IMG/VR virus record: IMGVR_UViG_3300027574_000003
Span: 1-34,256 of that record
DNA length: 34,256 bases
Source: a virus
Strand: one strand, 5' to 3'
The notes under the pieces are model-generated. The model had not been told where the DNA came from. It ran no database searches and saw only the letters and a program-made list of their open reading frames with translations. Position 1 is the stretch's first letter. Every line of letters starts with the position of its first letter. Both the position numbers and the translations under genes were made by a program. Of the stretch, positions 5,497-21,089 are shown one piece after another.

Positions 5497-5499
5497 GTC

Positions 5500-5982: not shown

Positions 5983-5986
5983 CGCA

Positions 5987-6640: not shown

Positions 6641-6657
6641 CGCTTTTCTCCTGTGTG

Positions 6658-6691
6658 AAAAAATCGGGGCCGCATCTCGCGACACGGCCCC
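6658..6691 (-). terminator. Intrinsic terminator downstream of the major capsid gene
   Basis: On the minus strand the arms GGGGCCG and CGGCCCC pair perfectly around a 12-nt loop (6666-6691) and are followed by a run of six T (6658-6663). It is in the 73-base gap between the capsid gene and the next structural gene, so it probably lowers transcription of tail genes relative to capsid genes rather than ending the operon completely. Confidence 0.85.
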
Positions 6692-6713
6692 AGTGCTTTA
6701 CTTCGGAGGAGCT

Positions 6714-7643
6714 TTAGGCCCCAGGGGTCCCATACACACCGCGCCAGCCATAGAAGCCGAAGTCCGCGCGGTAGCGCATGTACACGTAGCCGGTCTCGTT
6801 CTTTTCGACGAAGTCCGACTTGGTGTAAGGAGCCTTGCGGTCGAGCCACATGGTCTCGGTGTCCGACGCCGGCGCCACAAGGAACCAGGCATCGGGATCG
6901 GTCAGGTAGGGCCACACCAGCGGTTCGATGGCGGTGCCGGTTTCGGTGCCGTCCTGGAACGCGTTGATTGAAACGCGGTTGGCGGTGTCCGAGCGAGTCT
7001 GAGACTTCAGGATCTCGGTGACGTTCCAGCGGTTCGCCGAAGCCACCATGACACGCGGAGTGGGAAGCAACTGGAAGAAACCTTCGTGGGTTTTGATGAG
7101 TTCCCAGTCGGTGAGCGCCAGTTCGAGCGAGCCGACGTCGAGATCGGCCGCGGTGGAAAGAATGTTGTTCTGCACGCCGCCGGCTTTGATGAGCGGGTGA
7201 GAAGCGGAGAACAGAGGGACGCCGTCAGGCCCGTTGAAGGAGCCGGAGAATCCGTTGTTGAAGACGGAAGCGGCCTGGATTTCACGGGACTGATAGATGG
7301 AGTTGGAGAGAGCGACGGCGCGGCGCGAGATCACGCCCCACTTGTCGTCTTCCACCAATTCGAGCGACGCCGGGATGCCCAGACCATACTTCAGCGGCTT
7401 GAAGGTCTTGCTGTATCCCTGAACGAAGTTATCGGTCGGGGTGTCTTCACCTTCGCCCACCAGGACGGGAAGCCCCACGCCTGCCATTTGCGCGAACTGC
7501 TCGATCGAACGGGTGGTGGTGTCGGTATTGAGCACCGTGCCGCCCAGGAATTTCTTCGCCTTGAACGCCTGCCAGATCTTCGCGTTGAGCGCCGGCAGCA
7601 TGGTCTCGAAGAAAAAGTCGGAAAACTGACCTCTGATTTGCAT
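6714..7643 (-). CDS. Major capsid protein (gpT / HK97-like)
   Basis: 309 aa. The N-terminal part (QFSDFFFETMLPALNAKIWQ) and TDTTTRSIEQFAQMAG resemble Mu-gpT-type major head subunits. PLFSASHPL near residue 145 and the C-terminal YMRYRADFGFYGWRGVYG are typical of that family. Size, position after the scaffold-like gene, and the terminator just downstream support the call. No N-terminal prohead protease or delta-domain is evident, so assembly probably relies on the separate scaffold gene upstream. A short hairpin (7668-7681) occupies the 42-base gap before this gene. Confidence 0.9.
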   Translation of the reverse strand: MQIRGQFSDFFFETMLPALNAKIWQAFKAKKFLGGTVLNTDTTTRSIEQFAQMAGVGLPVLVGEGEDTPTDNFVQGYSKTFKPLKYGLGIPASLELVEDDKWGVISRRAVALSNSIYQSREIQAASVFNNGFSGSFNGPDGVPLFSASHPLIKAGGVQNNILSTAADLDVGSLELALTDWELIKTHEGFFQLLPTPRVMVASANRWNVTEILKSQTRSDTANRVSINAFQDGTETGTAIEPLVWPYLTDPDAWFLVAPASDTETMWLDRKAPYTKSDFVEKNETGYVYMRYRADFGFYGWRGVYGTPGA

Positions 7644-7685
7644 TGATTGTGTTCGGGCTGAAAGCCGGAGCCGGGAGGCTCAGGC

Positions 7686-8231
7686 TTAGATGCCCGCCTC
7701 CTGATTGCTGTCGACCAGGTTGTTGAAGGTCACAAAGACCTGCGCGAACTGGCCCAGCGCATTGTTGGCGTTGTTGTACAACCCGCGGACCCTGAGATCC
7801 AGCGTGTTGGTGGTGTTGATCGACGTTTCCGAGATCTGATGCTTCGATCGCAGAAGCGAGGTATCCCCAGCGGTGAGCGCGAGGTTCGCATTCTTGTTCA
7901 TCGAAGCCGCGACCAGGAAAGTGGCCCCGGTTCCATCGCCCTGAGCGACGAAGATAGCGCCGGCGCCCGCCAACACGATCGTGTGATCGGTTGCGGCGGA
8001 GGCCGCGCCATAGATCAGGTTGACGCCGAGAACCGGTGTGGTTCCAGGGGTGATGGCAGCGTCGATCGCTACGGTAGGTTTGGTACCCGCGGCCGCGTGG
8101 GTGATTACGTCCTGCATGAAGAGAGCGGTGCCGTAGCCCGCAATCTTGTGAGCCGGAACGAGGGAACCCGCCGCTCCGGACAGGGTGCGCATCGTCGGCT
8201 TGAAACCGAACGGCGCGTTGTTATTTGCCAT
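7686..8231 (-). CDS. Capsid decoration-like structural protein
   Basis: 181 aa beginning MANNNAPFGFKPTMRTLSGA, an N-terminus shared by many small phage structural proteins encoded next to capsid genes. The body is Ala/Gly/Thr-rich and beta-type (HKIAGYGTALFMQDVITHA, TTPVLGVNLIYGAASAA), ending LGQFAQVFVTFNNLVDSNQE. It is directly upstream of the major capsid gene, so a head decoration or minor coat role is likely. A strong AGGAG site lies before the ATG. Cannot exclude that it is the coat and the next gene a second shell protein. Confidence 0.75.
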   Translation of the reverse strand: MANNNAPFGFKPTMRTLSGAAGSLVPAHKIAGYGTALFMQDVITHAAAGTKPTVAIDAAITPGTTPVLGVNLIYGAASAATDHTIVLAGAGAIFVAQGDGTGATFLVAASMNKNANLALTAGDTSLLRSKHQISETSINTTNTLDLRVRGLYNNANNALGQFAQVFVTFNNLVDSNQEAGI

Positions 8232-8301
8232 ACACTTCTACTCCTTGAGTGGTGTGGTTGCGCCTCATGGAGCGAAGACCTGGCAATGCTGAGGTCTGCT
8301 G

Positions 8302-8339
8302 GCGTCCGGATGCCCTTGTTCAGGGACGGGAGTGGACGC
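8302..8339. other. Hairpin in the 155-base gap before the decoration gene
   Basis: Arms GCGTCC (8302-8307) and GGACGC (8334-8339) enclose a smaller CCCT/AGGG stem. The gap 8232-8386 has no convincing gene. The hairpin has no T-run on either side, so it is more likely a processing or mRNA-stability element than a terminator. Confidence is low because stems this short occur by chance in GC-rich DNA. Confidence 0.35.
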
Positions 8340-8386
8340 GCCTGCTTCGCGTTGGGTTGTTACTTACTGCCAGAAAATTCGAGATG

Positions 8387-8998
8387 CTACCGATCGACGA
8401 TGCCGTCTTCAGAGCGGACGTTGTCTTCGATCTGCCTCAAAAGCTGATTGCCGCGCTGGCGGAAGCCCTCGTTGCGTTGCTTCACCAGGTCCGTGGGAGC
8501 GTGGGCGAGTATCATTCCTTTGACCTTCACCGGATCGCCACCCTCTTTGTGGACGATCTCGTGAATACCGGTCGAGCCCTCTTCCTGAATCCGTTTGGCG
8601 GAAAGGAACTTGGGCGTCATCCCTTCGACGGCATACTTATCGGCGACTTCCTTAAATGGATCGCGCGAATCGGTGAGCGGCATGCCGCGCTGCTTAACGT
8701 CGTCGCGGCGCTGCTGAAGCGACTTCGCGAAGGGGTCCTTACCCATAGTCACTCCGCTAGACGGGCGGGCGTTCGGCGCGGTCTCGCGCTCCTTGATGCC
8801 CTCGTCGGTGGCGAAGTAATCGAGCGCCACCAGCACCGCCGGATCCAGATTCAGATCGGCGATCTTCACGCCGTCGATGTGGCATTCCTTCAGACGGTCG
8901 ACGCCGGTGACATGGCGTTCGTTTTCCGGTGCGCAGAAGATTTTCGATTCCCCTATGCCGCCGGCCACCTTGATCGCGTTTTTTGCTGCTCTCGCCAT
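8387..8998 (-). CDS. Hypothetical phage protein upstream of capsid genes (203 aa)
   Basis: The ATG overlaps the scaffold-like gene's stop (8998), so the two are coupled. The N-terminal ~70 residues are mixed alpha/beta (ESKIFCAPENERHVTGVDRL, LNLDPAVLVALDYFATDEG). The remainder is charged and helical (DPFAKSLQQRRDDVKQRGMP, FKEVADKYAVEGMTPKFLS, DLVKQRNEGFRQRGNQLL). Position between scaffold and coat suggests an assembly factor or head-inside protein. No catalytic motif or known family recognised. Confidence 0.72.
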   Translation of the reverse strand: MARAAKNAIKVAGGIGESKIFCAPENERHVTGVDRLKECHIDGVKIADLNLDPAVLVALDYFATDEGIKERETAPNARPSSGVTMGKDPFAKSLQQRRDDVKQRGMPLTDSRDPFKEVADKYAVEGMTPKFLSAKRIQEEGSTGIHEIVHKEGGDPVKVKGMILAHAPTDLVKQRNEGFRQRGNQLLRQIEDNVRSEDGIVDR

Positions 8999-9822
8999 TA
9001 CCGTCTCCTCCGAGCGCCACTGATGCCCAGCTCTTTGCGGCTGGTCTTGAACTGATCCTGACTGATGCCCATGCCGGCGATTACGGCTTTCGCTTCGTTG
9101 CCAAGCATGTCGTCGTCGTCGATCTCCGCGCGTCCCGAGGGACGGCTGTCCTGGGACCGAACGCGTGTGCGGCGGTCCTGCTCGTCTTCGAAGTCATCGT
9201 CGCGGCCGCGTGAAGGGTTCTTACGTTCGAGCGATTCCTTGGCAGCTTTCGCCGCGAGGAACAAAGCGCCGGGGTTCTTCGCCGACTTGGGATCGATCGC
9301 CACGGCTTCCTTGAACCTGGCGGCCGTTTCCTTGAAGAGCTCCGAGTTCTGATCGCGCAGCTCGGGGAACTTCTCCATGATCGCGGTGTCGGTCGTCCGC
9401 TTGGAGACCTCCCTGCCGATCATTTCCTTAGTCACTGCTTTTGCAGCTTCAATCGCGATCTCCTGCGCTTGCTTGCCGGTGACGAAGCCGCGCTTGCTGA
9501 TCGCCCTGACTCCCTCCGACGCGATGTCCGCCACCATCTTTTCGGCGTTGTCGTCTGCAGGGATGTCCGCCGCGTCGTCATCCATGAACTGCGCAGAGTC
9601 GAGTTCGTCGTCTTCCTCGACCACCTGCGGTTCGGCTACTCGCCCTGCGTTGCCGCGCGCGATGCCTGCCCACGTGCGTTCGGATTCTCCGAGTTCTCTT
9701 ACCTGGCGCTGGAGGCTCTCCAGCTCCGATTTGTTGATTGTGACCTTGTCGCCTTGTCCCTGGCCCTCACCGGGCACTACGGGTTCATTTGCATCGATCT
9801 GGTCGATGACGTCGTTTGGCAC
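8998..9822 (-). CDS. Scaffolding-like protein (acidic, helical)
   Basis: 274 aa, strongly acidic in the first half (Asp/Glu clusters near residues 70-95, such as DDDAADIPADDNAEKM) with a predicted coiled coil at KSELESLQRQVRELGESE. A helical middle (QEIAIEAAKAVTKEMIGREV) is followed by a charged, basic tail (GISGARRRR). Charge pattern, coiled coil, length and place between portal accessory genes and capsid genes are those of tailed-phage scaffolding proteins, whose basic C-terminal helix often binds coat protein. No sequence motif proves it. Confidence 0.7.
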   Translation of the reverse strand: MPNDVIDQIDANEPVVPGEGQGQGDKVTINKSELESLQRQVRELGESERTWAGIARGNAGRVAEPQVVEEDDELDSAQFMDDDAADIPADDNAEKMVADIASEGVRAISKRGFVTGKQAQEIAIEAAKAVTKEMIGREVSKRTTDTAIMEKFPELRDQNSELFKETAARFKEAVAIDPKSAKNPGALFLAAKAAKESLERKNPSRGRDDDFEDEQDRRTRVRSQDSRPSGRAEIDDDDMLGNEAKAVIAGMGISQDQFKTSRKELGISGARRRR

Positions 9823-9832
9823 TGTTTACTCC

Positions 9833-10189
9833 TCAGGAAAGACCTATCGCCTTTCCGAATTCTGTTTGACCGTAAAGCTCCGCGCGCTTCGGAACGTACG
9901 TCCGATTGCAGGGGATGCACATCACGCGATACTTGCCGTTCTCGAAATGAACGGCCATCTCCCCGCGCGGTCCGCACTTGCGTTGCGCCTTCAGTTCGTC
10001 GGCTTTGGTTCCACACTCCGAGCAGTCGCCTAGGAACTGGCCTGTCGCGATGGATTGCATCGCTTCCAGGTGTCTTTGCTCGCACGGAATGCAGATCTTG
10101 ACGCCGCCTGGCTGATGGATGATTTCAAGCGGGCTTCGAAACTTGGTGCAATAGGGGCACTGCTCGCCGATGATGATGCCGACACTCAT
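9833..10189 (-). CDS. Double zinc-ribbon protein (118 aa)
   Basis: Starts at the ATG that overlaps the preceding gene's stop (ATGA). Cysteine pairs CPYC, CIPC, CSEC and a later CIPC, plus single Cys residues, form two probable zinc ribbons at about residues 11-36 and 56-94. Zinc-ribbon proteins bind nucleic acid or scaffold other proteins. In the late operon, next to the scaffold-like gene, it could act in packaging or as a regulator. Function not recognised. Confidence 0.72.
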   Translation of the reverse strand: MSVGIIIGEQCPYCTKFRSPLEIIHQPGGVKICIPCEQRHLEAMQSIATGQFLGDCSECGTKADELKAQRKCGPRGEMAVHFENGKYRVMCIPCNRTYVPKRAELYGQTEFGKAIGLS

Positions 10190-10353
10190 GACGGTCGGAG
10201 GGCGCACGCCGCCAAACTGAGAGTCTTCGCCAAGGACTCGGCCTGCTCTGGAAGAAGGGATACGACGGTGCTGAAAGAGCCATTATTTACCGTCATGGTG
10301 ACCAGACCCGAAGTGAAATCGGAGGCAATGGCAAGTTTTCCGCTAGGATTCAT
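10186..10353 (-). CDS. Small hypothetical protein (55 aa)
   Basis: I found this by reading the gap. An ATG at 10353 overlaps the upstream stop (ATGA) and its own TGA overlaps the ATG of the zinc-ribbon gene. The protein begins MNPSGKLAIASDFTSGLVTM and ends LSLAACALRPS, a beta-like N-terminus then a helix with QAESLAKTLSLAAC. Coupling at both ends is the evidence for translation. No family recognised. Confidence 0.6.
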   Translation of the reverse strand: MNPSGKLAIASDFTSGLVTMTVNNGSFSTVVSLLPEQAESLAKTLSLAACALRPS

Positions 10354-10508
10354 CGCTTCTTGACCACTCCACTGGCTTGCTGAATGGCCTTGCCGTCAGG
10401 CGTACCCGACGCGAGCAGGCGGTTTGCTATGTCCGCCCACTCGCGCTGCTTCTTCGGCGTCGAGGCCTTCTTAGTTTTCTTTTTGGCATCCGCCGGCTTC
10501 CAGGGCAT
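10350..10508 (-). CDS. Small basic protein (52 aa)
   Basis: Begins MPWKPADAKKKTKKASTPKK and ends in a helix with REWADIANRLLASG and QASGVVKKR. An AGGAG site lies 6 bases before the ATG and the stop overlaps the next gene by ATGA. The Lys-rich N-terminus and the 'KKxxxTPKKQREWADIANxLLxxG' layout resemble small phage proteins common near structural genes (nucleic-acid-binding is plausible). Role not known. Confidence 0.65.
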   Translation of the reverse strand: MPWKPADAKKKTKKASTPKKQREWADIANRLLASGTPDGKAIQQASGVVKKR

Positions 10509-10510
10509 CG

Positions 10511-10825
10511 CTACTCCTGGGAGGCGCTGGGATCGGTTGTCGGCGGTACCGGCTGCAATTCGGATCCGGCAACTCCCGAATCGCCGATGGACGCCGGCGT
10601 GTTCGGCTTCGGTTCGGAAAAGGGTTCAGTCTGCGTGTGCGGATGCTCGGGAAGCGGCTCGACATCGTCGACATCGCAGTGCTTAATGATCGCGTCCGCG
10701 ATCGCCACCGACTTCTCGGCTACGACGCCGGCGTTTACTCCGCCGTGATCGACGCCATGCTTTGCGAGAAGTCCGGATGCGACAACCGCGGATAAGTAAG
10801 CTCGTTCGAAAGTTCTGCTCGTCAT
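10511..10825 (-). CDS. Hypothetical phage protein (104 aa), helical then Pro-rich
   Basis: The first ~50 residues are helical and hydrophobic (TFERAYLSAVVASGLLAK, VVAEKSVAIADAIIKH). The last ~50 are acidic and Pro-rich (VDDVEPLPEHPHTQTEPFSE, PVPPTTDPSASQE), probably disordered. It lies in a gap-free run of late genes between portal and scaffold. No motif or family recognised; the two-part composition could fit a flexible assembly factor. Confidence 0.65.
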   Translation of the reverse strand: MTSRTFERAYLSAVVASGLLAKHGVDHGGVNAGVVAEKSVAIADAIIKHCDVDDVEPLPEHPHTQTEPFSEPKPNTPASIGDSGVAGSELQPVPPTTDPSASQE

Positions 10826-10835
10826 TTGAAGTCTC

Positions 10836-11228
10836 CTAGTAACTGTGGCCCAGCATCTTGCTCGCGACTCCAGACCATTGCGTCGGAGCTGCCGGCGAAG
10901 CCGAGGGCGCGCCTTTCTTCGGTGGGAAGGTTTGGCGGATGTGACCCTGCAACGCGCGCAAGCTGCCGTGCTGTCCTGTGGTCACGGGATTCGGACGGTA
11001 GCTGTGATCGTCGCCACGCGGCTGCAGGTGCGTGGTCTTCGAGATGAAACCGCCGTTATCGGTCTCTTCGATTTCCATGTGCTTCCTGCTCTTGGGCGCC
11101 GCTCCCGTTACCTTCTTCAGGTTCGGGTTGGCCTTCTTTGCGGCCGAAGAGCTGGCGAGGATGGCGCCGGCGGCTTTCTTGCCGTACCCTTCGCCTTCGA
11201 TTTTCCGTTGCACTGCTGCGAAGCTCAT
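10836..11228 (-). CDS. Hypothetical phage protein, basic (130 aa)
   Basis: Overlaps the preceding gene by ATGA. The N-terminal ~40 residues (MSFAAVQRKIEGEGYGKKAA, then GAILASSSAAKKANPNLKKV) form the compact helical segment seen in small phage proteins of the 'KIxxEGYxxxxAxAIxASxxRKA' type. The rest is polar and likely disordered, ending KMLGHSY. Position after the portal suggests a virion-associated or assembly role. Not otherwise recognised. Confidence 0.7.
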   Translation of the reverse strand: MSFAAVQRKIEGEGYGKKAAGAILASSSAAKKANPNLKKVTGAAPKSRKHMEIEETDNGGFISKTTHLQPRGDDHSYRPNPVTTGQHGSLRALQGHIRQTFPPKKGAPSASPAAPTQWSGVASKMLGHSY

Positions 11229-11470
11229 CGTCGTTTCTCCTTAACAGGCACTTCCGAAATCAGAATCTCCGGGATGCTCAGCGCCGTCCGGAAGCCTGCG
11301 ATCTGTCCGCGGACTTTGTATGTCGCCGGCATTTCGAGATCGCCCTCCAGCGTGGCCTGAAGGCGCGCGATCTCATCCTGGATCCGCTTTCTCACCAGGG
11401 CGTAGCCTGGCGAAATCAGAAGCTCCTCAATCGAGTCCTTGTCGCCGCTGTCTAACAGTTCGTCTTGCAT
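11225..11470 (-). CDS. Small helical phage protein (81 aa)
   Basis: Starts 6 bases after the portal stop and overlaps the next gene by ATGA. The sequence is helical with a coiled-coil-like segment (ALVRKRIQDEIARLQATLEG) and a following YKVRGQIAGFRTALSIPEI. This type of small protein, placed directly after the portal in short-tailed phages, is often an unknown but conserved virion or assembly component. No enzyme motif. Confidence 0.68.
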   Translation of the reverse strand: MQDELLDSGDKDSIEELLISPGYALVRKRIQDEIARLQATLEGDLEMPATYKVRGQIAGFRTALSIPEILISEVPVKEKRR

Positions 11471-11476
11471 GGCTCG

Positions 11477-13741
11477 TTACCCCGGTAGGATCGTTTGCGG
11501 CACGTGCTGAGCGCCCGCAGCGGCCGGTGGAGGCGGAATATCGCCTGGAGGCACCGGGTTCGCCTGAGGCATCTGAGGCGGTCCGCCCGGACCAGGCGCG
11601 CCTGGCTGTTGGCCCGGTTGACCAGGTTGACCGGGCATTTGCGACATTTGTTCCAATCGCTGGAGAATCCCCGGGTCGATGCCGTTTGCAGGATGGCCGG
11701 CGATCGCAGTTTGCTGAATCAGCTGCGTGGTGAGCGCCGACATCATCTGCTTCGTCTTCATCTGCCGCTGATGCTCCATGATGTGAGGCACCATGAGGCC
11801 GATCGCCTGTTCGTTGCGATCCTTGTCGCGGCGTTCCTGTTCGAGGTCCTGGGTATGCTCGGCGATGTGCTGCTGATCGTTGTCTTGCGGGTTGACGTGA
11901 ACAACCTCGCCTTCGAGCATTTGCGTCCACTCGTCTTCCGGAAGTTGGGGACGATCGAGCGCCGGCGGCCGCGGAACCATCGAGCTGAAATCGCTGATGC
12001 CGAATTCCCTTGCCACACGGTTGGTGAGTTCCCAGAGCGCCAGAGGATTCTGAACGATCAACGGGTTCTGCATGGCGAGCTGAACGAAGCCGAGCAGCTC
12101 CTGCTTCTTCGCCTGGCGCGCCCACACGCTGGTGGCGAACTTCAGCTTGAAGTCATAGCGGCCGCCGAATTCCTTGGGCTGCATGTAGGCGCCGCCCTGC
12201 TTCACATCGAACAAACCGTTGGCCTGCTCTTCGGTGACGCGGAAGAAGAGGCCGGGATCCGTCTTCGGTACCAGATCGCAATCCAGATCCCAGAAATCGC
12301 TGATGATCTGCTCGGTGTCCTCTCGTAGGATGGTCGAGTCGAGATACGCCCGGACGTTGCCTTCCTCGATCAGTGCGAGCTGGCCGGAAGCCGTTCGCGG
12401 TGCGTTAGGACGGTCGATCGATCTGCCGAGCGATTGATCGGTGATGCTGGTGACGCGCTCCGCGATCCCCACGATGTCCTGTTGCCGCGACATGAGGAAT
12501 TCCAGGTTAGGCGTGAGCTTCACGACGTTGACGGATGCCGGGTCTTCAGTCGGATACGCCATGCCCGGTTCGAGCCGGATGGCCCCGGGCTTCATCGCAC
12601 CGCCCGGTTTGAAGAAGATGAGGGGCCACACGCTCAGTTCGCCGGCAGCCTGGAACAATTGCGAGTTGGCGGTGAGATCGTCCTCCAGATCCTCCAGCAG
12701 CGCGCCGAAGCCTTTCGGCCTGTAAGTGCCATCCTTGATGAGCGTCGATTCGACGAACGGCCGGCGCCGCTTCATCTTCGGATAGAGCTGCAGAAGGTCC
12801 TGGACTCCGACGATTTCTTTGAGGCCGGGGATGAACTTCACCACCCAGTCTGATTCGAAGAGCTGGCGGGTTTCGAGGTTGTTTTCCTCCCCGTCCTTCT
12901 TTTGACTCTTCAGCGGCCGCCACTTGCCGTACCATTCCCACACCCACAGGATGCGACGGCCGTACATAAACGAGTCGTAGTCGACGCCTTCCGATCTCTC
13001 GCGCTCTTCCCGCACCGGATCTTGTCCGACCAGCGTGTAATCGTTCGAGGGACCCTGTTGCGCCCACTGAATGAGCTTGTCCACCATCGCCGGGTCTGAC
13101 GTGCCCTGGTAGAGCGTGCCGTCGCCGCGGATGAGGTCGTCGACCGATACCGGTACCCTGCGAATGACGAAGCTGAAATCCTGCAGCGACATGACGCCGC
13201 GCTCCGCCGGAACCATCAGATCGTCGGGCTCGAGCGGAAAGAATCCAGGCCCTTCGTAGTCGCACACGCGGACGGGCTTGCCACCCTTGATCGTGGTGAA
13301 CTCGTCTTTCCACCAGGGCCGGTATGCTGCACTCCAGCCGTTCAGGATGCGGCGGAACTCGAAGACGCACAGCGGATTGATCAGTTGCATCTGATCGAAT
13401 ACCCGCGAGGTCATGTAGCGGCCGATCTTCGCGACTTTCTGCGCGTCTGACGGGCCGGTGGCTTTCGCCGTGATCTCCGCGTCGTCTCCCAGGAGCGCCT
13501 GTATGTCCCTGGCCAACTTGTTGAAGCACTGCCACTGCGTGAGCGGTACCACGTGGTTCGGCTTGTCTTCGTCGCCGGCTCTCGCGGGGTCGACGCGGCC
13601 TTCCCATTTCTGCAACCAACCGGCACATCGTTGAGACCAGCGCAGGTGAGAGGCTTTGCAAAGCAGAAAGTCCTGCTCAATGCGCTGCACCAAGCGGTTC
13701 TTTTCGGCGCCGGAGATCTGGAGTTGAAAGGTCTTTGGCAT
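11477..13741 (-). CDS. Portal protein
   Basis: 754 aa from the ATG that overlaps the upstream stop (TGATG). Helical N-terminal region with the long 'wing' and stem segments of P22-like portals: QRIEQDFLLCKASHLRWSQR, a WSAAYRPWWKDEF stretch, then DLIRGDGTLYQGTSDP. The crown-side C-terminal part contains long helices (QDLEQERRDKDRNEQAIGLM) and ends in a Pro/Gln/Gly-rich tail (GQPGQPGQQPG). Length matches the P22-type portal class rather than the ~400-aa HK97 type. Follows the terminase in the usual packaging-then-portal order. It forms the dodecameric DNA channel of the capsid. Confidence 0.88.
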   Translation of the reverse strand: MPKTFQLQISGAEKNRLVQRIEQDFLLCKASHLRWSQRCAGWLQKWEGRVDPARAGDEDKPNHVVPLTQWQCFNKLARDIQALLGDDAEITAKATGPSDAQKVAKIGRYMTSRVFDQMQLINPLCVFEFRRILNGWSAAYRPWWKDEFTTIKGGKPVRVCDYEGPGFFPLEPDDLMVPAERGVMSLQDFSFVIRRVPVSVDDLIRGDGTLYQGTSDPAMVDKLIQWAQQGPSNDYTLVGQDPVREERERSEGVDYDSFMYGRRILWVWEWYGKWRPLKSQKKDGEENNLETRQLFESDWVVKFIPGLKEIVGVQDLLQLYPKMKRRRPFVESTLIKDGTYRPKGFGALLEDLEDDLTANSQLFQAAGELSVWPLIFFKPGGAMKPGAIRLEPGMAYPTEDPASVNVVKLTPNLEFLMSRQQDIVGIAERVTSITDQSLGRSIDRPNAPRTASGQLALIEEGNVRAYLDSTILREDTEQIISDFWDLDCDLVPKTDPGLFFRVTEEQANGLFDVKQGGAYMQPKEFGGRYDFKLKFATSVWARQAKKQELLGFVQLAMQNPLIVQNPLALWELTNRVAREFGISDFSSMVPRPPALDRPQLPEDEWTQMLEGEVVHVNPQDNDQQHIAEHTQDLEQERRDKDRNEQAIGLMVPHIMEHQRQMKTKQMMSALTTQLIQQTAIAGHPANGIDPGILQRLEQMSQMPGQPGQPGQQPGAPGPGGPPQMPQANPVPPGDIPPPPAAAGAQHVPQTILPG

Positions 13742-13929
13742 CAGGCGTTTGCCAACATCTGTCGAAGCGTCCAACGCATGGCAGCTTTGAGCGGGGGATC
13801 GCCCGGAACGCCGCGGTCAACCTCGCACCATGGAGCGTGCTCACCCGACCCGAAGGTGCAGGCCTCGCAGCACATCTCTGGATTCGGTTGGTAAGGGTTC
13901 GAGCGGTTTCCGTCGCGATCAGAAGTCAC
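13741..13929 (-). CDS. Small Cys-rich protein (62 aa)
   Basis: GTG start inside the end of the upstream gene (11-base overlap); the stop overlaps the portal ATG by one base. Cysteines in EMCCEACTFGSGEHAPWCEV form a CCxxC...C pattern suggesting a bound zinc. A C-terminal helix (LKAAMRWTLRQMLANA) follows. Coupling with the portal suggests co-expression in the packaging module. Function not recognised. Confidence 0.6.
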   Translation of the reverse strand: MTSDRDGNRSNPYQPNPEMCCEACTFGSGEHAPWCEVDRGVPGDPPLKAAMRWTLRQMLANA

Positions 13930-14155
13930 TGAGCAGGCCTCTCTCTTCGCCGTCGATCATCAATCCAACCTCGTGAGCCGGGCAAAAGAACTCCCATCCC
14001 ATGCGCTTCCAGCCGGCAGGAACGCAGGCGTTTGGAATTTCCTGTTGCCGATAAATTCGATGGGCCTCTACGACCTGCACGTCACACGCGGAACACTGGT
14101 AGCGGTACGCGATCGCGGCGATGCTGAAGTTGTCGGAGCTTACCGCGTTAGTCAT
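13919..14155 (-). CDS. Small zinc-binding-like protein (78 aa)
   Basis: Start chosen at the ATG overlapping the terminase stop (ATGACTAA), 40 codons inside the longest open frame, because upstream residues would overlap the terminase end. Cysteines CSAC near residue 22, a single Cys near 44 and FFCPAHE near 56-62 could form a zinc site. Trp residues occur in GWKRMGWEF. Lies between large terminase and portal. Role unknown. Confidence 0.62.
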   Translation of the reverse strand: MTNAVSSDNFSIAAIAYRYQCSACDVQVVEAHRIYRQQEIPNACVPAGWKRMGWEFFCPAHEVGLMIDGEERGLLSDF

Positions 14156-15893
14156 CGTCGTCTCGTCTGCCCTGCATCCTGTAACTCTTGGCTTTCCACT
14201 GCTGCACGCCCTGCTGCTCTTCGAGGGTGTCGCGATATTCGAACGCCCTTCTCGCATAAGGCAGCGCTTCCACACACAGAGCCAGGCCGAAGACGTCGTC
14301 GTCGTGGCCCAAACCTTCCTCGCGGCCGTTCGGTTTCCTGACGAACTCGCGGAGCTGCTGCAGCGTCTCCGGATCGTGTACCTTGATCGCGCCTGAGCGG
14401 ACCGCGTTATCCAGGTTCGAGATCAGGATCGGCCGGTTCACGACGTTGGTTTCGTAACCCAGCTCCTGCAGCAATGCCGTCCGGCGGTCGCTCGGATCGC
14501 GCTGCCTCGCGTAAATCAGCTCCTGAGGGTAAGCCGGGTGATCGTCGTCATGACTCAACAGATGGCCGATCACGGCCTTGCCGACGGCCTTCTGTTCGGG
14601 GCAGATGAAAGCCCAGTTGTAAAACCTGCCCAGCCAGTAAATCCGATGCGCCCAGGGCGAAGGCTCGTAACGTTCCTTCAGCTTGGCGACTTCTTCGCCG
14701 GTGTCGGCGTCCATCACGGTTGCCGAACAGAAGTCCGGATCTGAACCGCCGGCGCCCTTCTTCGCTCCGGGGTCGATTCCCTCGGCATGGTCGACGCCGA
14801 TGATGTAGCGGCCGGCCTTGCGCGGCACGTGGTAGACGACCAGTTCGCCGCGGCCGTCTTCCGATTGCAGGAACTGTACCCGCTTCTCGATTCCCAGGTC
14901 GACGACGTCGAGTCGCCCGCGCGGAGCTTCTCTGATCTCCGGCATGCGCGCGATTGCCTTGAGATCGAAGATCGTGCGTCCGGTCGACTGGAATGCTTCC
15001 TCCGGATTCGCCGGGAACTCTTGCCGGAAGCGTTCGATCTTGCCTTCGCAGGCGGTCTCGATCTGCCGGCGCCGCCAGGCGATCTGATCGACATGCAGGT
15101 TGTACTTCTGCAGCTCGGCCAGCTCGTCGCGCATGAGCTTGAAACCGGGGTCTGGTTTCAGCCGGTATTCCGGATGCTCCCACCACGCGAAGAACAGGAA
15201 CTCCCAGCCGGTTCGCCGGCGTGGGTCCATCGCAAGTCGGCAGAGATCGTAGAAGTCTCCGCCCATCCCGTTGGCCGTCGACTCCACGATGAGGCCGGAA
15301 TCGGGTGAGTTCGGGATGCGCTGCATCAATCCCGTCATCACCGCGCCGAGGTCGCGATAGAAACCTGCCTCAGACAGAATCACCCAGTTGAAGGGCGCGG
15401 ACCTGGCCACATCCACGTTTCCGGCGGTGTGGACCAGGACGCTCGATTCGTTGGCCCAGCGTACCCAGCGCTCCGTGTCCTTCACCAGCGCGGGGAGTTT
15501 GATCGCCGCGTTGAGTTCCGCGCCATACGGATTCTCCGCGTACGATTCCATGTACTGCCGGAAGTAGCTGAAGACCAGATCGGCATGCAACTCGGTGTCA
15601 GCCAACACCAGGCCGCGGCGGCCGGGGAAGAACGGGACCTGGCGGAACATCTGGGTCGAGGCCGAGCTGGTCATCCAGACCTGCGAGGCCTTCAGAACCA
15701 CCACACGCACCGGGAGCATGCGCCGCCGCATTCCCTCGATCACGCGGTTGAGCTTCGATCCGCCCGGTGACGTCCGGTAAGGGACCGCAAGCCCTTCCTT
15801 GTTCCGGATCTTCAGGTGCGAGCAAAACTTCTCGTGATCGGTGAACCCGCGTATCAGTGCCGCGGCCTCAGCCGGAGTAAGGCTTGGAGTCAA
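14148..15893 (-). CDS. terL: Terminase large subunit
   Basis: 581 aa from a TTG overlapping the upstream stop (TTGA). No ATG lies in the N-terminal region before conserved sequence. The ATPase domain has a deviant Walker A segment (LKASQVWMTS, about residues 67-76), a Walker B-like segment NWVILSEAGF (about 169-178, Ser in place of the usual Asp before Glu-Ala) and a coupling motif ESTANG (204-209). EFPANPEEAFQ is a standard terminase segment. The nuclease domain has GVDHAEG (acidic residue near 368) and GHDDDVFGLAL near the end. It packages DNA into the prohead and cuts it. Confidence 0.9.
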   Translation of the reverse strand: MTPSLTPAEAAALIRGFTDHEKFCSHLKIRNKEGLAVPYRTSPGGSKLNRVIEGMRRRMLPVRVVVLKASQVWMTSSASTQMFRQVPFFPGRRGLVLADTELHADLVFSYFRQYMESYAENPYGAELNAAIKLPALVKDTERWVRWANESSVLVHTAGNVDVARSAPFNWVILSEAGFYRDLGAVMTGLMQRIPNSPDSGLIVESTANGMGGDFYDLCRLAMDPRRRTGWEFLFFAWWEHPEYRLKPDPGFKLMRDELAELQKYNLHVDQIAWRRRQIETACEGKIERFRQEFPANPEEAFQSTGRTIFDLKAIARMPEIREAPRGRLDVVDLGIEKRVQFLQSEDGRGELVVYHVPRKAGRYIIGVDHAEGIDPGAKKGAGGSDPDFCSATVMDADTGEEVAKLKERYEPSPWAHRIYWLGRFYNWAFICPEQKAVGKAVIGHLLSHDDDHPAYPQELIYARQRDPSDRRTALLQELGYETNVVNRPILISNLDNAVRSGAIKVHDPETLQQLREFVRKPNGREEGLGHDDDVFGLALCVEALPYARRAFEYRDTLEEQQGVQQWKAKSYRMQGRRDDDD

Positions 15894-16237
15894 CGCGCCC
15901 AGAGAGCGGCCATACCGCCGCGTTCCCAGCGAGCTTGGGCATTGAGGCGAACGCCGCGATGAAGGCTCAGCAGATCGGGGTGAGTGCGCGCAGTCGCGGC
16001 GTTGAACCTGAAACACATCCGGTTCATGCAAAGGCCGCGCTTCGAGGTGTAGTGAAAGCACGCGGGGCACCCGATTGCTGTTCGCGAATGCCGGCCGCCG
16101 CGATAGACGTGAGTCGGGCGAATGTCCTTGGGTGCAACGTACGGCCGCTGCGGATCGCCGCCTGTGGGATTAAGCGAATGCTTGCCGCCGAAGCCCAGCA
16201 TCGCGGCCAGGCCGGAAAGTAAACTAGCAAGTCTCAT
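15890..16237 (-). CDS. Small Cys-rich protein between terminase subunits (115 aa)
   Basis: Coupled at both ends: ATGA overlap with the small terminase and TTGA with the large one. The N-terminus (MRLASLLSGLAAMLGFGGKH) is hydrophobic and could be an anchor or just a helix. CPACFHYTSKRGLCMNRMC gives C-x2-C-x10-C-x4-C, a probable zinc site. The C-terminal ~40 residues are basic. It may be an accessory of the packaging motor or unrelated. Not recognised. Confidence 0.6.
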   Translation of the reverse strand: MRLASLLSGLAAMLGFGGKHSLNPTGGDPQRPYVAPKDIRPTHVYRGGRHSRTAIGCPACFHYTSKRGLCMNRMCFRFNAATARTHPDLLSLHRGVRLNAQARWERGGMAALWAR

Positions 16238-16749
16238 TTGTCGTCGTCTTCCTCAGGAGTGGTGAGTTTTCTATAGAGCGCGAGCAAATCTTCCATCGTG
16301 CCTTCGAAGCGCTTGACCGTCTTGTCGCCCAGCTCGTGTTCGACCCTGTCGCGGTATTGCTCCGGCTTCTTCGCCTTCAGAACCGTGATGAGCAGCTGAT
16401 CGGAGTACTCGCGTTCGAGGTAGGGCACGAACACTTTGCACTCAGGGTCCGCCGGGTTCTTCGGAACCATGACCAGTTCGCCGTGATAGAACTTTGGCTT
16501 GAGCAGCCCCTCGCGCCCGCGGCGAAGAGCTTCGTCTTCGAGAGCATCGGCCGCTATAACCGTCGCTTCATTGAAGGCCACCTTATAGTCCGGCGATCGC
16601 TCCATCAGCCGGTAGTGAGCTTCCCGTCTGACGCCGGCGGCCTTGGCTGCTTTGGTGATGCTGCAGGTCAACCGATACGCCGCGAGAAAGGCGCGGATGC
16701 GCGGGCTCGGGTTCCATTCTTTCGGCTGCTGTTTTCTCTTGCCGGCCAT
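16234..16749 (-). CDS. terS: Terminase small subunit
   Basis: 171 aa. Residues ~20-55 (FLAAYRLTCSITKAAKAAGV, then RREAHYRLMERSPDYKVAFN) form the small-terminase helix-turn-helix with the following helix EATVIAADALEDEALRRGREG. After a segment with VPYLEREYSDQLLITVLKAKKPEQYRDR the protein ends in a helix and acidic tail (EEDDDK). This is the standard layout of phBC6A51-type small terminases, which bind the pac or cos site. Position just before the large subunit supports the call. Confidence 0.87.
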   Translation of the reverse strand: MAGKRKQQPKEWNPSPRIRAFLAAYRLTCSITKAAKAAGVRREAHYRLMERSPDYKVAFNEATVIAADALEDEALRRGREGLLKPKFYHGELVMVPKNPADPECKVFVPYLEREYSDQLLITVLKAKKPEQYRDRVEHELGDKTVKRFEGTMEDLLALYRKLTTPEEDDDK

Positions 16750-17169: not shown

Positions 17170-17220
17170 GGGGAGATGGCGGGACGGCAGCGCTTATCCG
17201 TCCCGCGCAGCAATCTCCCC
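17170..17220 (-). other. Strong two-part hairpin directly after the sigma factor gene
   Basis: Outer arms GGGGAGAT/ATCTCCCC (8 bp, 17170-17177 and 17213-17220) and inner arms GCGGGACGG/CCGTCCCGC (9 bp, 17179-17187 and 17198-17206) are both perfect, with a 1/6-nt internal bulge and a 10-nt loop containing AGCGCT. It begins one base after the sigma gene's stop on the minus strand. There is no T-run in the direction of late transcription, so it may be an attenuator, RNase processing site or 3' stabiliser. Confidence 0.75.
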
Positions 17221-17221
17221 T

Positions 17222-17872
17222 TTATTGCCCCGCGTCGAGGCTTCCGGCGGCCGCGACATCAATCGCAGTGCTGTGGTTGCTAACGATGTGGGACAAACGC
17301 GTTTCCGCGTCGCATGGCGCGGGTATATCGTGCGGGCAACCCTCGCCCATCATTCGTTCAATTTCGTCCTGCACTCGAATCCTCAGCTTTCGCCGGAGCT
17401 TGGCGATCAGGTGTTGCTTCAACTGACTCACCCGCTGTACGGAGAGTCCTAGCTCTATCGAGGTCTCGTTGCCAGTGAGGCCGCGCAGCATGCAGGCGAA
17501 CACCGCAGCCTGTTGCCCTCCGAGAAAGCGTCCCCAAGTCCGGACCTCACTCAACAGAGTGGTGTGCATGACGTCGCTCGACTCGTCGGACATCGTCACC
17601 GGGATCGGCACGTTCTGCCGAGGCGGCCGCTCGCCGCGCGCTCCGGTTTCGCGCCTGGCGTAGTCGATCATGGCGCCGGTCATGCGCGCTTCGAGGAACG
17701 AGGTACCCTGCGAGATGGCCGGATCGATTCGCGGAATCGCCAGCAATGCAGCGAGTAAAGCTTCCTGCCTGAGATCGTCGCGGGTTTGTGTGCGCAACGC
17801 AAGCGGAAGGCCTCGGGCAAACCGTGCAGCCACGATGTCGGCTTGTCGGAAAACGCGGGGCGCCAGCTCCAC
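17222..17872 (-). CDS. Sigma-70 family (FliA-like) sigma factor
   Basis: 216 aa, GTG start touching the stop of the glycosyltransferase gene. Region-2-like segment at residues ~10-75 with DDLRQEALLAALLAI and a FliA-type GAMIDYARRE. Region-4-like helix-turn-helix at ~117-163 (LGGQQAAVFACMLRGLTGNE, SIELGLSVQRVSQLKQHL) followed by a basic helix. This two-region layout without region 1 is that of group 3/4 sigma factors, which direct RNA polymerase to alternative promoters. Inside a late operon it could switch on later genes. Alternative: a sigma-like regulator lacking activity. Confidence 0.75.
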   Translation of the reverse strand: MELAPRVFRQADIVAARFARGLPLALRTQTRDDLRQEALLAALLAIPRIDPAISQGTSFLEARMTGAMIDYARRETGARGERPPRQNVPIPVTMSDESSDVMHTTLLSEVRTWGRFLGGQQAAVFACMLRGLTGNETSIELGLSVQRVSQLKQHLIAKLRRKLRIRVQDEIERMMGEGCPHDIPAPCDAETRLSHIVSNHSTAIDVAAAGSLDAGQ

Positions 17873-18595
17873 TTACTCGATCCTGAAGGGCTTGGTCTTG
17901 CGGCCCTTCCAGTTGACCGCCATTTCCGCCGGTTCCGATTCCAGGTGATAGCCAAGGATTTCCGGGATGAGCGCGCGCTTGCGGCGAGGCCATTGCGTCG
18001 GGAAGTTGGCGTCCTCTTTGCCGGCGTCGGTGTGGCCCTCGGGATACTTGGTTACTTTTGACTCAGCCGGATGCCACATCTGAAAGAAGCCGATCGGGAT
18101 GTAGCCGCCGTGGTGCTGAAACGCTACTCTGGTACCCAGTTGGAACGGCGCATGAGTCGTATGAATGAAAAAGCCGTTCCCCTGGATGGCAGGGTCGGGG
18201 TTACCGATGAACCGCTGCCAGTCTTCCCAGCTCTTGCACTCCAGGCGGTCGATCCCATAGATCATTGAAGGATCGAGGTCCATCGCTTCGAGCGAGCGCC
18301 GCGTGTGCGGTGGAAGCGCGATGTCGGCGTCCATGTGCACCACGAAGCCGTCCTTGTCGAGCTTATCGAGGCCGACGTTGATGCCGGCGCCCTTGCTGAA
18401 TACGCCTTGCCACCGGGTGTTCAGCTTGTCGGTGCGCTCGTAGGTGACTCCCCAGTAGTCGCAGATGCGCTGGGTGTCGCGATCTTCCGGCGCCGTAACT
18501 ACTACGATGCGATCGAAGTGCGGCTTATTAAAAGGCAGGGTGTGCGCGAGAAAGTCCGCGCATCCGGCCGAGATGATGACAGCTTCGAGCTTCAT
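17873..18595 (-). CDS. GT-A type glycosyltransferase-like protein
   Basis: 240 aa from the ATG overlapping the upstream stop (ATGA). The N-terminal fold starts with MKLEAVIISAGCADFLAHTL and RIVVVTAPEDRDTQRI, followed by the metal-binding DxD motif in VVHMDADIALPP near residues 88-99, the hallmark of GT-A nucleotide-sugar transferases. Conserved Trp/Gly segments GNPDPAIQGNGFF and HPAESKVTKYPEGH follow. It may glycosylate capsid proteins, DNA bases or host surface sugars. Donor and acceptor cannot be read from the sequence. Confidence 0.75.
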   Translation of the reverse strand: MKLEAVIISAGCADFLAHTLPFNKPHFDRIVVVTAPEDRDTQRICDYWGVTYERTDKLNTRWQGVFSKGAGINVGLDKLDKDGFVVHMDADIALPPHTRRSLEAMDLDPSMIYGIDRLECKSWEDWQRFIGNPDPAIQGNGFFIHTTHAPFQLGTRVAFQHHGGYIPIGFFQMWHPAESKVTKYPEGHTDAGKEDANFPTQWPRRKRALIPEILGYHLESEPAEMAVNWKGRKTKPFRIE

Positions 18596-18762
18596 AAGAA
18601 AGCAGGGTTCCGGTTCACAGGGAGGTTCGACTCCGTAGGGCATTCGTCCAGCTCGCTCATCAGAATCGGGGCCGACATGAGGTCGACCAGGGCGATCAGT
18701 TCGCGGCACAACACCGCGGCGGGCATAGAGCGAAGAACTTCGTCATGAGAGAGCCCATCCAA
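18592..18762 (-). CDS. Small hypothetical protein (56 aa), start uncertain
   Basis: Its stop overlaps the ATG of the glycosyltransferase (ATGA), and frame and composition fit a real gene. No clear ribosome site was found: a TTG at 18762 and an ATG at 18726 are both possible. The product (LSHDEVLRSMPAAVLCRELI, then DLMSAPILMSELDE) is helical and acidic. It resembles short helical regulators or adaptor-like small proteins only in general form. Confidence 0.45.
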   Translation of the reverse strand: MDGLSHDEVLRSMPAAVLCRELIALVDLMSAPILMSELDECPTESNLPVNRNPAFL

Positions 18763-18778
18763 AATGCACCAAAGGGTT

Positions 18779-19057
18779 TCATGCTGCCTGCGGGTAGTGC
18801 AGATACGTTTGTCCGGTAAACGCGTCGGGTTTGAACGGAACCACGTCGAGCGGATCGGCTGAATGCCTGACTGCCGGCCGCGATCGCTTCTCACCCGAAC
18901 CGGGGATAGCGGCCGCTCGCGGCTTGTCGATCATGCGGATCGAGGAATCGTCGACGAACTCCGCACGCCCCTTGGCAACAAGCTTGATGGCTCGATCGAT
19001 GCTAGTCATCGCGCCAGGAGTCGTACTGCCCAGCACTCGAATCTTCTGATGAGACAC
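18779..19057 (-). CDS. Hypothetical phage protein (92 aa)
   Basis: GTG start chosen because AGGAG lies 5 bases upstream; the longest open frame extends further but its upstream part has low-quality composition. Begins MSHQKIRVLGSTTPGAMTSI, then DRAIKLVAKGRAEFVDDSSI and RMIDKPRAAAIPGSGEKRSR. A short beta-helix-beta domain with a polar tail. A 155-base gap (19058-19212) before it holds weak inverted repeats and no gene. Not recognised. Confidence 0.65.
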   Translation of the reverse strand: MSHQKIRVLGSTTPGAMTSIDRAIKLVAKGRAEFVDDSSIRMIDKPRAAAIPGSGEKRSRPAVRHSADPLDVVPFKPDAFTGQTYLHYPQAA

Positions 19058-19212
19058 GTCGGCTCCTGTTATCCACGCGGGGAACGCCGTACCCACGGCG
19101 CAAGGGAAAAGCTTTTGATATGGCCGTCGCGAGCCCCGGTACCCGAAACTCCGTTCCGGTCCGGTTTCGCGCGTTCGCCCCGGCACCTTCGGTACCGACG
19201 GCACGTGAAGAC

Positions 19213-19671
19213 TTACGCCGCGGCTTTCACTGGTACCGGCGCTGCTTTGACCACAGTTTTGATGGAGCGCTTACCAACGCGCTCTTTGCGAATGAGCTGC
19301 TCGTACTTAGCCGGGGTGAGCGCGGACTTCAGCGCTTCGAACGTCGGCTTGCAGAGAGCGATATAGGTGTCCTTGCCGATCTCGCGGAAGACTTTCGCGC
19401 GAGCCGGAATGTCGAGCTGCTGCACATCGGCGGCCGCTCCGACTTTGAGGCGGTAGATCAGCCCCTCATCGGTGAAGACCTTCTCGACGTCCTTACCTTC
19501 GTAGCCTGCCAGGAGCTTCGCTTCCAATTCGTCGGCTTCCGCCTCGAACGGGGCGATCTGGACGGCATAGTCGGCCAGGATATCGTTTAGAACCCCCAGG
19601 CGATCAATTGCCTGGGGGCGGTTGAAAGGGGAATCAGGAGGAACAACTTTGAGCTTCGCAGCAGCTTCCAT
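19213..19671 (-). CDS. Hypothetical helical protein, first gene of the late operon (152 aa)
   Basis: Starts MEAAAKLKVV at 19671; a TTG at 19683 in the same frame is possible but lies within the predicted -10 box. The protein is helical and charged (RLGVLNDILADYAVQIAPFE, then AEADELEAKLLAGYEGKDVE), with a later FREIGKDTYIALCKPTFEAL and a Lys/Ala/Val-rich tail. There is no ribosome site before the ATG although others in the operon have one. Function unknown; first-gene position suggests an early regulator or accessory. Confidence 0.72.
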   Translation of the reverse strand: MEAAAKLKVVPPDSPFNRPQAIDRLGVLNDILADYAVQIAPFEAEADELEAKLLAGYEGKDVEKVFTDEGLIYRLKVGAAADVQQLDIPARAKVFREIGKDTYIALCKPTFEALKSALTPAKYEQLIRKERVGKRSIKTVVKAAPVPVKAAA

Positions 19672-19682
19672 TGTCAGGATCA

Positions 19683-19711
19683 ATTATGTGCGCGAAGATA
19701 CAGAGAGGCAA
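19683..19711 (-). promoter_or_regulatory. Predicted promoter of the late operon (minus strand)
   Basis: TTGCCT (19706-19711) and CATAAT (19683-19688) are separated by exactly 17 bases on the minus strand, a good fit to a sigma-70 promoter. The inferred start near 19676 leaves only about 5 bases before the ATG at 19671, so the transcript would be nearly leaderless. It is divergent from the LuxR-type gene. Confidence 0.6.
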
Positions 19712-19737
19712 TTCCTCAGAATGGGGACCATGTAATC

Positions 19738-19745
19738 GGGTACCC
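19738..19745. promoter_or_regulatory. GGGTACCC palindrome between late promoter and LuxR-type gene (possible operator)
   Basis: An 8-bp perfect palindrome (inside CGGGTACCCCG) lies 20 bases upstream of the LuxR-type start, between two divergent genes. It is the obvious symmetrical site for a dimeric regulator. Short, and only one copy in the gap. Confidence 0.35.
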
Positions 19746-20435: not shown

Positions 20436-21089
20436 TTAGTGCTTTCCTTGCGTCACTTTTGGCCCACGTTTTGGCGAGGCTTTCGATACACGCGATTGGC
20501 GTGGGTTTGACGCACATGCTGATACAGCACGTTGAACCGCGGCGAGCGGGACGCCGAGTTCGCGCGCGATTCCGCGGAAACTCACGCCATCGGCCCTCAT
20601 CTGGACGGCCTTGCCGCGATCAAAGATCTTCTTGGGCCGGCCAAATCGAACACCCTTAGCCATGGCGGCCTTCACTCCGGCCTTGACGCGTTCCTGGATC
20701 ATGGCGCGCTCGAACTCAGCCACTGCGCTCAGAATGATCAGCATCAGCCGGCCGTTGGGGTTGGTCTCGTCGGTATCGAGGTTCTGCGTGGTGGCGATCC
20801 ACCGCACGCCAAGCGAGCGCAGCTCGTTCAGGCTGTCGAGAACATTGGAGACCGAGCGCCCCCAGCGATCCAACTTCCACACCAAAATGACATCCAGCGT
20901 GCGACTGCGCGCGTCCGCCATGAGGCGGTCGAGCTGAGGTCGGGACGCTTTCGAGCCGGACCATCCTGTATCGACATATTCGCCAGCAAGCTTCCAGCCG
21001 CGGAGCCGCACCTGGCGCCGCAGTTCCTTCAACTGCATGGCGCAGTCCTGGTCGGACGTCGAGACCCGTGCGTAAATGGCTGCTCTCAT
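20436..21089 (-). CDS. Serine recombinase (resolvase/invertase type)
   Basis: 217 aa. The catalytic N-terminal domain starts MRAAIYARVSTSDQ with the nucleophile Ser at residue 10, followed by GEYVDTGWSGSKASRPQLDR, the conserved WKLDRWGRS and the dimer-helix region LIILSAVAEFERAMIQERVK. A C-terminal helix-turn-helix (KAVQMRADGVSFRGIARELG) binds DNA. Size is that of small resolvases/invertases, not of large serine integrases. Could resolve genome dimers, invert a DNA segment or belong to a past transposon insertion. No recombination site recognised by eye. Confidence 0.9.
   Translation of the reverse strand: MRAAIYARVSTSDQDCAMQLKELRRQVRLRGWKLAGEYVDTGWSGSKASRPQLDRLMADARSRTLDVILVWKLDRWGRSVSNVLDSLNELRSLGVRWIATTQNLDTDETNPNGRLMLIILSAVAEFERAMIQERVKAGVKAAMAKGVRFGRPKKIFDRGKAVQMRADGVSFRGIARELGVPLAAVQRAVSACASNPRQSRVSKASPKRGPKVTQGKH

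Follow-up and report, generated by a model that had tools for sequence, protein, structure and literature searches.

A FliA-related sigma factor encoded beside the terminase genes, and a facing LuxR-type gene, in a probable Acidobacteriota phage

Introduction

Can a phage protein encoded just ahead of the terminase genes be the sigma factor that turns on the late genes? The question is raised by IMG/VR virus record IMGVR_UViG_3300027574_000003, analyzed here as a complete record of 34,256 bases with 60% G+C (hereafter the window). In it, a gene for a 216-residue protein lies within the late operon and ahead of the packaging genes, on the minus strand together with the genes for the small and large terminase subunits (terS and terL) and the capsid gene. 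An earlier examination of the letters alone (the sequence-only reading) had proposed that this protein is a sigma factor with regions 2 and 4, acting behind a divergently encoded LuxR-type regulator. We infer, with a probability of roughly 60%, that the phage uses it as a sigma factor for its own late genes, working like Xpf of PBSX.

Results

The 216-residue protein consists of sigma regions 2 and 4

The open reading frame at 17222-17872 on the minus strand encodes a genuine sigma-70-family protein, and the proposed regions 2 and 4 were borne out by Pfam, NCBIfam, a family profile and predicted structure. Pfam Sigma70_r2 (PF04542) matched at E = 5.1e-7 (29.8 bits against a cut-off of 24) and Sigma70_r4 (PF04545) at E = 1.7e-4 (21.4 bits, slightly below the cut-off of 24.1). 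The NCBIfam model TIGR02937 (sigma70-ECF superfamily, where ECF stands for extracytoplasmic function) gave 5e-10, its 39.2 bits lying slightly below a cut-off of 42.9 that is exceeded by the sigma factors of the related loci L011, L027, L030, L036, L038, L054 and L084. When the profile of 42 family members (alignment A4) was compared with PDB sequences, FliA ranked first (9wsm_F, 1.2e-41), followed by WhiG, RpoS, SigA and RpoD. Tested singly, 39 of the 42 members matched region 2, 30 matched region 4 and none matched region 3; in the window protein the residues between the two domains are too few to hold it.

The NCBIfam FliA_WhiG model aligned regions 2 and 4 of the window protein apart, as two separate stretches (3e-7; 30.4 bits against a cut-off of 189.6), and several relatives' sigma factors scored best with the FliA or FliA_WhiG models. 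The earlier label 'FliA-like' thus holds for the family profile, which is closest to FliA, and fails for the whole protein, which lacks region 3 and scores far short of the FliA_WhiG cut-off. In sequence, the family of this sigma2-sigma4 factor is nearest to FliA; in its reduced architecture, the protein corresponds to ECF sigma factors. The absence of region 3 suggests that it reads either a simple -10/-35 pair or a promoter dominated by its -10 element.

In the AlphaFold model (mean pLDDT 82), two helical domains, sigma2 at about residues 1-77 and sigma4 at about residues 102-167, mostly exceeded pLDDT 85 and were followed by a disordered C-terminal tail. Nearly all structure matches of the model were sigma factors: sigma2 superposed on FliA sigma2 over 73 residues at 1.7 Å, and sigma4 on those of SigD and CnrH over 61-66 residues at 1.1-1.8 Å. 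Many kinds of phage sigma factors in a viral structure library also matched, with TM-scores that were low because the two domains are flexibly placed. By inspection, the D-L-x-Q-E core-binding motif is kept in sigma2 (TRDDLRQEA). Codon-level comparison with the relative L002 (dN/dS about 0.36, with dS near saturation) indicates that the gene is under purifying selection.

A sigma gene lies beside terL in many related phages

As a single-sequence query, the window sigma factor found no close homologue in 50,697 phage records and none in IMG/VR by peptide patterns. A relative's sigma factor used in the same way gave one marginal match; single-sequence searches miss homologues at about 20% identity, so these results do not imply absence. 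The large terminase subunit (TerL) was therefore used as the anchor, which yielded 41 IMG/VR loci and then, with TerL alignment A1, 80 loci from IMG/VR and 22 from bacterial genomes. Among the 92 distinct terL-anchored records with at least 1.5 kb of upstream sequence each, the family hidden Markov model (HMM) located a same-strand sigma gene no more than 5 kb ahead of terL in 48. Without 17 loci of distant TerL (at most 31% identity; L057-L060 and L062-L074), which belong to other phyla and showed no clear sigma gene near terL, the count was 48 of 75, in line with the earlier expectation of a related gene at the same place. Pfam region 2 was matched in 21 of 42 records, in 20 of them above cut-off.

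The sigma reading frame typically ends a few dozen bases from terL and is usually adjacent to it; in L028, L032 and L038 it is flanked by a terS-like helix-turn-helix (HTH) gene on one side and terL on the other. A sigma-anchored scan returned 14 loci, all 14 with terL downstream, and serves as a consistency check rather than an independent sample, as most of its contigs were already known and the query sigma factors had been found beside terL. Retention differs between clades: where TerL is 36-47% identical, nearly all records carry the gene upstream of terL, and in the closest clade (at least 58%) it is patchy. In MW202692, a distant TerL relative, no sigma gene is annotated beside the TerL gene. 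Some loci hold more than one such gene. L011 has two different sigma genes in one operon (5355-5957 and 7985-8629, both plus strand), and L033 has, besides a sigma gene upstream of terL, a second sigma-like gene downstream of it (10368-11292, plus strand) that overlaps a GerE-only gene.

All five genome contigs with TerL identity of at least 36% come from Acidobacteriota bins, assigned to Terriglobia (L053), Acidobacteria (L054 and L055) and Bryobacterales (L056 and L061). Ordinary host genes stand at both ends of the L056 contig (cytochrome oxidase, transporters and type VI secretion-like genes, identified by eye in the translations), an arrangement that fits an integrated prophage. From these relatives, the host of the window virus is probably an acidobacterium.

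A single-domain LuxR-type gene faces the head of the late operon

The stand-alone LuxR-type gene that had been described as divergent from the operon was confirmed: its 100-residue product carries a GerE domain (PF00196, 40.1 bits against a cut-off of 23.5) with the HTH at residues 11-49, and Pfam matched no N-terminal autoinducer-binding or sensor domain, so that quorum sensing should not be assumed. Its C-terminal tail reads H81-x3-C85-x-C87-x4-C92 (HKPGCRCKGPVC), and this HxxxCxCxxxxC pattern is kept in about ten distinct lineages of phages with and without sigma (the window, L002, L006, L014, L022, L038, L078-L082, L089 and L098). Across 12 aligned LuxR-type sequences H81 and C92 are invariant, and the middle cysteines differ in L018 and L088. 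The one histidine and three cysteines suggest a putative metal or cluster site. An opposite-strand GerE gene lies 2-5 kb upstream of terL in about 20 records, both with sigma (L002, L022, L038, L084, L088, L089 and L098) and without it (L006, L010, L013, L014, L018, L053 and L078-L082).

Between this gene and the operon lies a sigma-70-type promoter, TTGCCT-17-CATAAT. Allowing one mismatch, the hexamer pair occurs nowhere else in the window (0.03 expected), and L002 repeats both hexamers with the 17-base spacing. The palindrome reported to lie between the two genes is present, and there are two such sequences: GAGGAATTGCCTC overlaps the -35 element, and some 30 bases beyond it comes GGGTACCC, upstream of the promoter and inside the block TAACCTTCGGGGTACCC. 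Each palindrome alone is not clearly rarer than chance in this genome; the blocks that hold them are largely identical in L002, and several further relatives have palindromes of other sequence, found by eye, in the same intergenic space. The position of the LuxR-type protein beside this promoter fits the proposed control of the first promoter. Within the operon, the stop codon of the glycosyltransferase-like gene (17873-18595, minus strand) abuts the start of sigma, a GTG immediately 3' of that stop (TAAGTG; TAATG in L002).

Other regulators occupy the same part of the operon in some relatives

Upstream of terL and on the operon strand, six relatives (L006, L012, L013, L016, L019 and L022) encode a protein with a CxxC...CxxC segment and a GerE HTH; in L006 (9060-9461), L013 (5130-5414) and L022 (9404-9739), all on the plus strand, the segment fused to the HTH is zinc-ribbon-like. 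These CxxC-LuxR genes occur mostly where sigma is absent, and L022 has both. The late operon of L053, the phage from a Terriglobia bin, has no sigma and encodes a NusG paralog (7923-8426, plus strand; PF02357 8e-10, with a KOW motif). NusG paralogs are known antiterminators. This part of the operon may be an exchangeable regulator slot, in a small sample in which L006, L016 and L019 are near-identical.

Further features of the window

The features that frame the operon are collected in Table 1. Alongside them, an inverted repeat (CGCCGT-GGGT-ACGGCG, 19085-19101) stands 5' of the small GTG-start gene, as a single copy in the window, and is also found in L002. Neither a repressor nor an integrase was recognised in the window to support the temperate lifestyle implied earlier; the only recombination gene recognised, for a small serine recombinase, is not shown to belong to the sigma/LuxR circuit. 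Beside the LuxR gene, many of these phages carry such a small serine recombinase and L053 a tyrosine integrase (5320-6282, plus strand; PF00589 2.2e-14), as if the two were exchanged. On the opposite arm lies an adenine-specific DNA methyltransferase-like gene (32061-32858, plus strand; PF02086 4.9e-6). Rfam and tRNA scans gave no matches. As to circular closure, the record has no terminal repeat, and an open frame spanning the joint was unconvincing.

Table 1 Features of the window around the late operon.
Feature	Position	Strand	Evidence
Sigma factor gene, 216 aa	17222..17872	-	Pfam r2/r4, NCBIfam, AlphaFold model, structure matches
LuxR-type (GerE) HTH gene, 100 aa	19765..20067	+	Pfam GerE 2.8e-10
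Sigma-70-type promoter between LuxR gene and late operon	19683..19711	-	Consensus scan; -10 ends 11 nt before first ATG
Palindrome GAGGAATTGCCTC over -35, candidate operator	19705..19717		L002 identical bar one base
Palindrome GGGTACCC in block TAACCTTCGGGGTACCC	19738..19745		Block conserved with L002
First late-operon gene, 152 aa	19213..19671	-	L002 78-79%; homologues adjoin facing LuxR in relatives
Small gene, GTG start	18779..19057	-	tblastn L002 44%
Glycosyltransferase-like gene	17873..18595	-	Weak Pfam match Glyco_tranf_2_3 0.0077; L002 90%
Strong RNA hairpin, starts 2 nt past sigma stop codon, no U-run	17170..17220	-	-32.7 kcal/mol, z -3.4
Terminase small subunit	16234..16749	-	phrog_4044 1.1e-26
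Terminase large subunit; start uncertain, conserved part from ~15893	14148..16070	-	phrog_24361, tblastn to annotated terminase genes, alignment A1
Major capsid protein	6714-7643	-	PF25209 6.5e-18
Intrinsic terminator after capsid gene, inside late operon	6665..6692	-	12-pair stem then ATTTTTT
Small serine recombinase	20436..21089	-	PF00239 3.4e-43; LuxR-gene neighbour in many relatives

Discussion

A proposed late-gene role for the sigma factor and its alternatives

If the protein is a late-gene sigma factor, RNA polymerase carrying the host sigma-70-type factor would start at the 19.68 kb promoter, which is observed as a sequence and as conserved in one relative, and the facing LuxR-type protein would regulate this start through one or both palindromes at or above the -35 element. 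The resulting transcript would include the sigma gene, as the observed abutment with the preceding gene suggests. With its predicted fold, the sigma factor would bind the host core polymerase through sigma2 and contact promoters with sigma4. Its position and the PBSX precedent suggest that it may direct polymerase to late promoters of the packaging and structural genes, reinforce its own operon, or do both. Given the place of the gene and the analogy with Xpf, it is plausible that, as suggested earlier, polymerase is redirected to the structural or the lysis genes. Neither strand showed a sigma-70-type site over positions 1 to 14500, where 2.4 were expected, a weak hint that the late genes there may not be started by the host sigma factor.

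Several observations weigh against a late role. The promoter elements that the sequence-only reading expected to be shared upstream of 17147, 8231 and 6640 did not emerge: in these and the other late gaps of the window none scored above shuffled sequence, the best pair reaching 11.4 against shuffle maxima of up to 12.6. The gene at 34220, preceded by 36 bases, stood outside this comparison. Among 24 sigma-carrying relatives, just one, L038 (42 kb), has a promoter-like repeated element. Many relatives in the closest TerL clade have the same operon head and no recognisable sigma gene, which is therefore not the sole solution for this operon. Finally, sigma diverges faster (46% amino-acid identity to L002) than neighbouring genes (79-90%), a rate that fits a changing specificity factor but equally a weakly constrained accessory gene.

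The L038 element consists of three exact copies of CTGTCGGATAGCC and one of TTGTCGGATATCC, all intergenic and on the late strand (positions 659, 745, 16945 and 19182, plus strand); two lie 5' of a recombinase gene and two 5' of late genes. It is absent from the window. The CGGATA within CTGTCGGATAGCC resembles the sigma-28 -10 element, GCCGATAA. Derived from one genome, CTGTCGGATAGCC may be a late promoter or, just as well, an operator. The blocks GCGCCGTGGGTACGGCG and CCTTCGGGGTACC were rejected as repeated elements, each having one exact copy, and motif hits in L112, L115, L117, L054 and L055 proved to be local or tandem repeats. Noncoding arrays of a 33-base tandem repeat were seen in L117 (about 1133-1320) and L055 (about 7262-7394). 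Alignments A4 and A5 held too much variation for a pattern scan.

The alternative that survives best, although we consider it unlikely, is a single late transcript from 19.68 kb, with the LuxR-type protein as the real late activator, sigma as a mere amplifier or dispensable, and sigma, CxxC-LuxR and NusG-type proteins as accessory regulators gained and lost in the front of the operon. It would account for the LuxR gene and operon-head gene being kept in the sigma-less L010, L014, L018, L053 and L078-L082, for the CxxC-LuxR genes of six relatives and the NusG paralog of L053 occupying the same part of the operon, and for the late strand having a single good host-type promoter, at 19.68 kb, with none in 1 to 14500. 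Against this, retention of sigma in the 36-47% TerL clade is too strict for an accessory gene, and plain read-through would be hindered by the strong hairpin after sigma and by the terminator that follows the capsid gene. The hairpin may or may not be a terminator; L002 has one of other sequence at the equivalent site 3' of sigma, with a z of just -1.6.

Far less probable is that the target of sigma is host transcription and not the late genes of the phage, with sigma as a take-over or lysogenic-conversion factor of the kind known from Bacillus phages. Phage sigma factors acting on host genes have published precedent (PMC2716549), many related sigma factors occur in host genomes, and a FliA-like sigma2 could recognise host sigma-28-type promoters; but the gene belongs to the late operon, where it borders on the terminase genes, and is kept there down to 36% TerL identity, at a place where expression in a lysogen would be unexpected. 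We give the least credence to a separate induction module, in which the LuxR-type regulator would activate a facing gene whose product inactivates a repressor, with sigma downstream by coincidence: the anatomy, in which a regulator and a gene next to the late operon face each other, is similar to that of the TF-smORF modules of Vibrio phages (PMC10432266), and LuxR and first gene are conserved as a pair, but the facing gene encodes about 150 residues (152 in the window) rather than about 60, no cI-type repressor was recognised in the window and the LuxR protein has no ligand-binding domain.

The late-gene role of sigma may be one case of a wider arrangement, which we advance tentatively. A large group of uncultivated Acidobacteriota phages could share a two-tier late switch, made of a facing single-domain LuxR-type protein with the metal-ligand-like HxxxCxCxxxxC tail and an exchangeable in-operon redirector of transcription (a region-3-less FliA-type sigma factor, a CxxC-LuxR protein or a NusG paralog), with sigma reading a short promoter like CTGTCGGATAGCC. 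If the slot truly exchanges sigma, LuxR and NusG types, one operon would have changed its mechanism of late control with the first switch kept. Acidobacteriota are among the commonest soil bacteria, and few studies have dealt with late-gene timing in their phages; with its fixed place beside terL, the sigma gene offers a testable entry point and an annotation marker for such phages.

Comparison with known systems

A phage late sigma factor as such is of a known kind. What appears to be undescribed, in the searchable non-subscription papers, is a FliA-related, region-3-less sigma factor beside terL in uncultivated Acidobacteriota phages, behind a facing HxxxCxCxxxxC LuxR-type protein; one paper on Acidobacteriota phages makes no mention of sigma or LuxR. 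FliA and WhiG (sigma-28, group 3) are the nearest solved relatives of the family profile, whereas the window protein lacks region 3, falls far below the FliA_WhiG cut-off and has no flagellar context. With ECF (group 4) factors it shares the bare sigma2-linker-sigma4 layout and the TIGR02937 match, but its score is slightly below that model's cut-off and the family sigma2 sequence is nearer to FliA. T4 gp55 is likewise a phage-encoded sigma factor and matches structurally over 88 residues (7d7c_F, Z 9.3). It has no sigma4 and acts together with gp33 and the sliding clamp, whereas the window protein has a sigma4 of its own. In the phage LuxR-type regulators and TF-smORF modules of Aeromonas and Vibrio phages, a regulator also faces a gene that it may control, near late genes (PMC10432266); the LuxR-type protein here differs in lacking an autoinducer-binding domain, in its HxxxCxCxxxxC tail and in facing a larger gene.

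The circuit had been called unusual, which is too strong for its principle, since Xpf, RinA and Ltr are known examples of regulators encoded immediately ahead of terminase. RinA and Ltr are small late regulators encoded just upstream of terS and terL in Gram-positive phages, where they switch on packaging and structural genes (PMC13123087). The window protein shares their size class and place, but those are DNA-binding activators at a promoter of the host main sigma factor, whereas it is itself a sigma factor and has a sigma2 of its own. The nearest functional precedent, by analogy, is Xpf (Pcf) of PBSX, a defective Bacillus subtilis prophage. According to work by McDonnell in 1994, xpf reportedly directly precedes the terminase genes xtmA-xtmB and is required for late transcription. 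Xpf has been described as a sigma2-sigma4 'positive control factor' of group IV architecture (PMC10141391) and as a 'positive control sigma-like factor' (PMC9836290). The likeness is one of architecture and position, in that both proteins have sigma2 and sigma4 only and both are encoded upstream of terminase genes in a phage or prophage; the window differs in its probable Acidobacteriota host, in a profile closest to FliA and in the LuxR-type gene that faces its operon.

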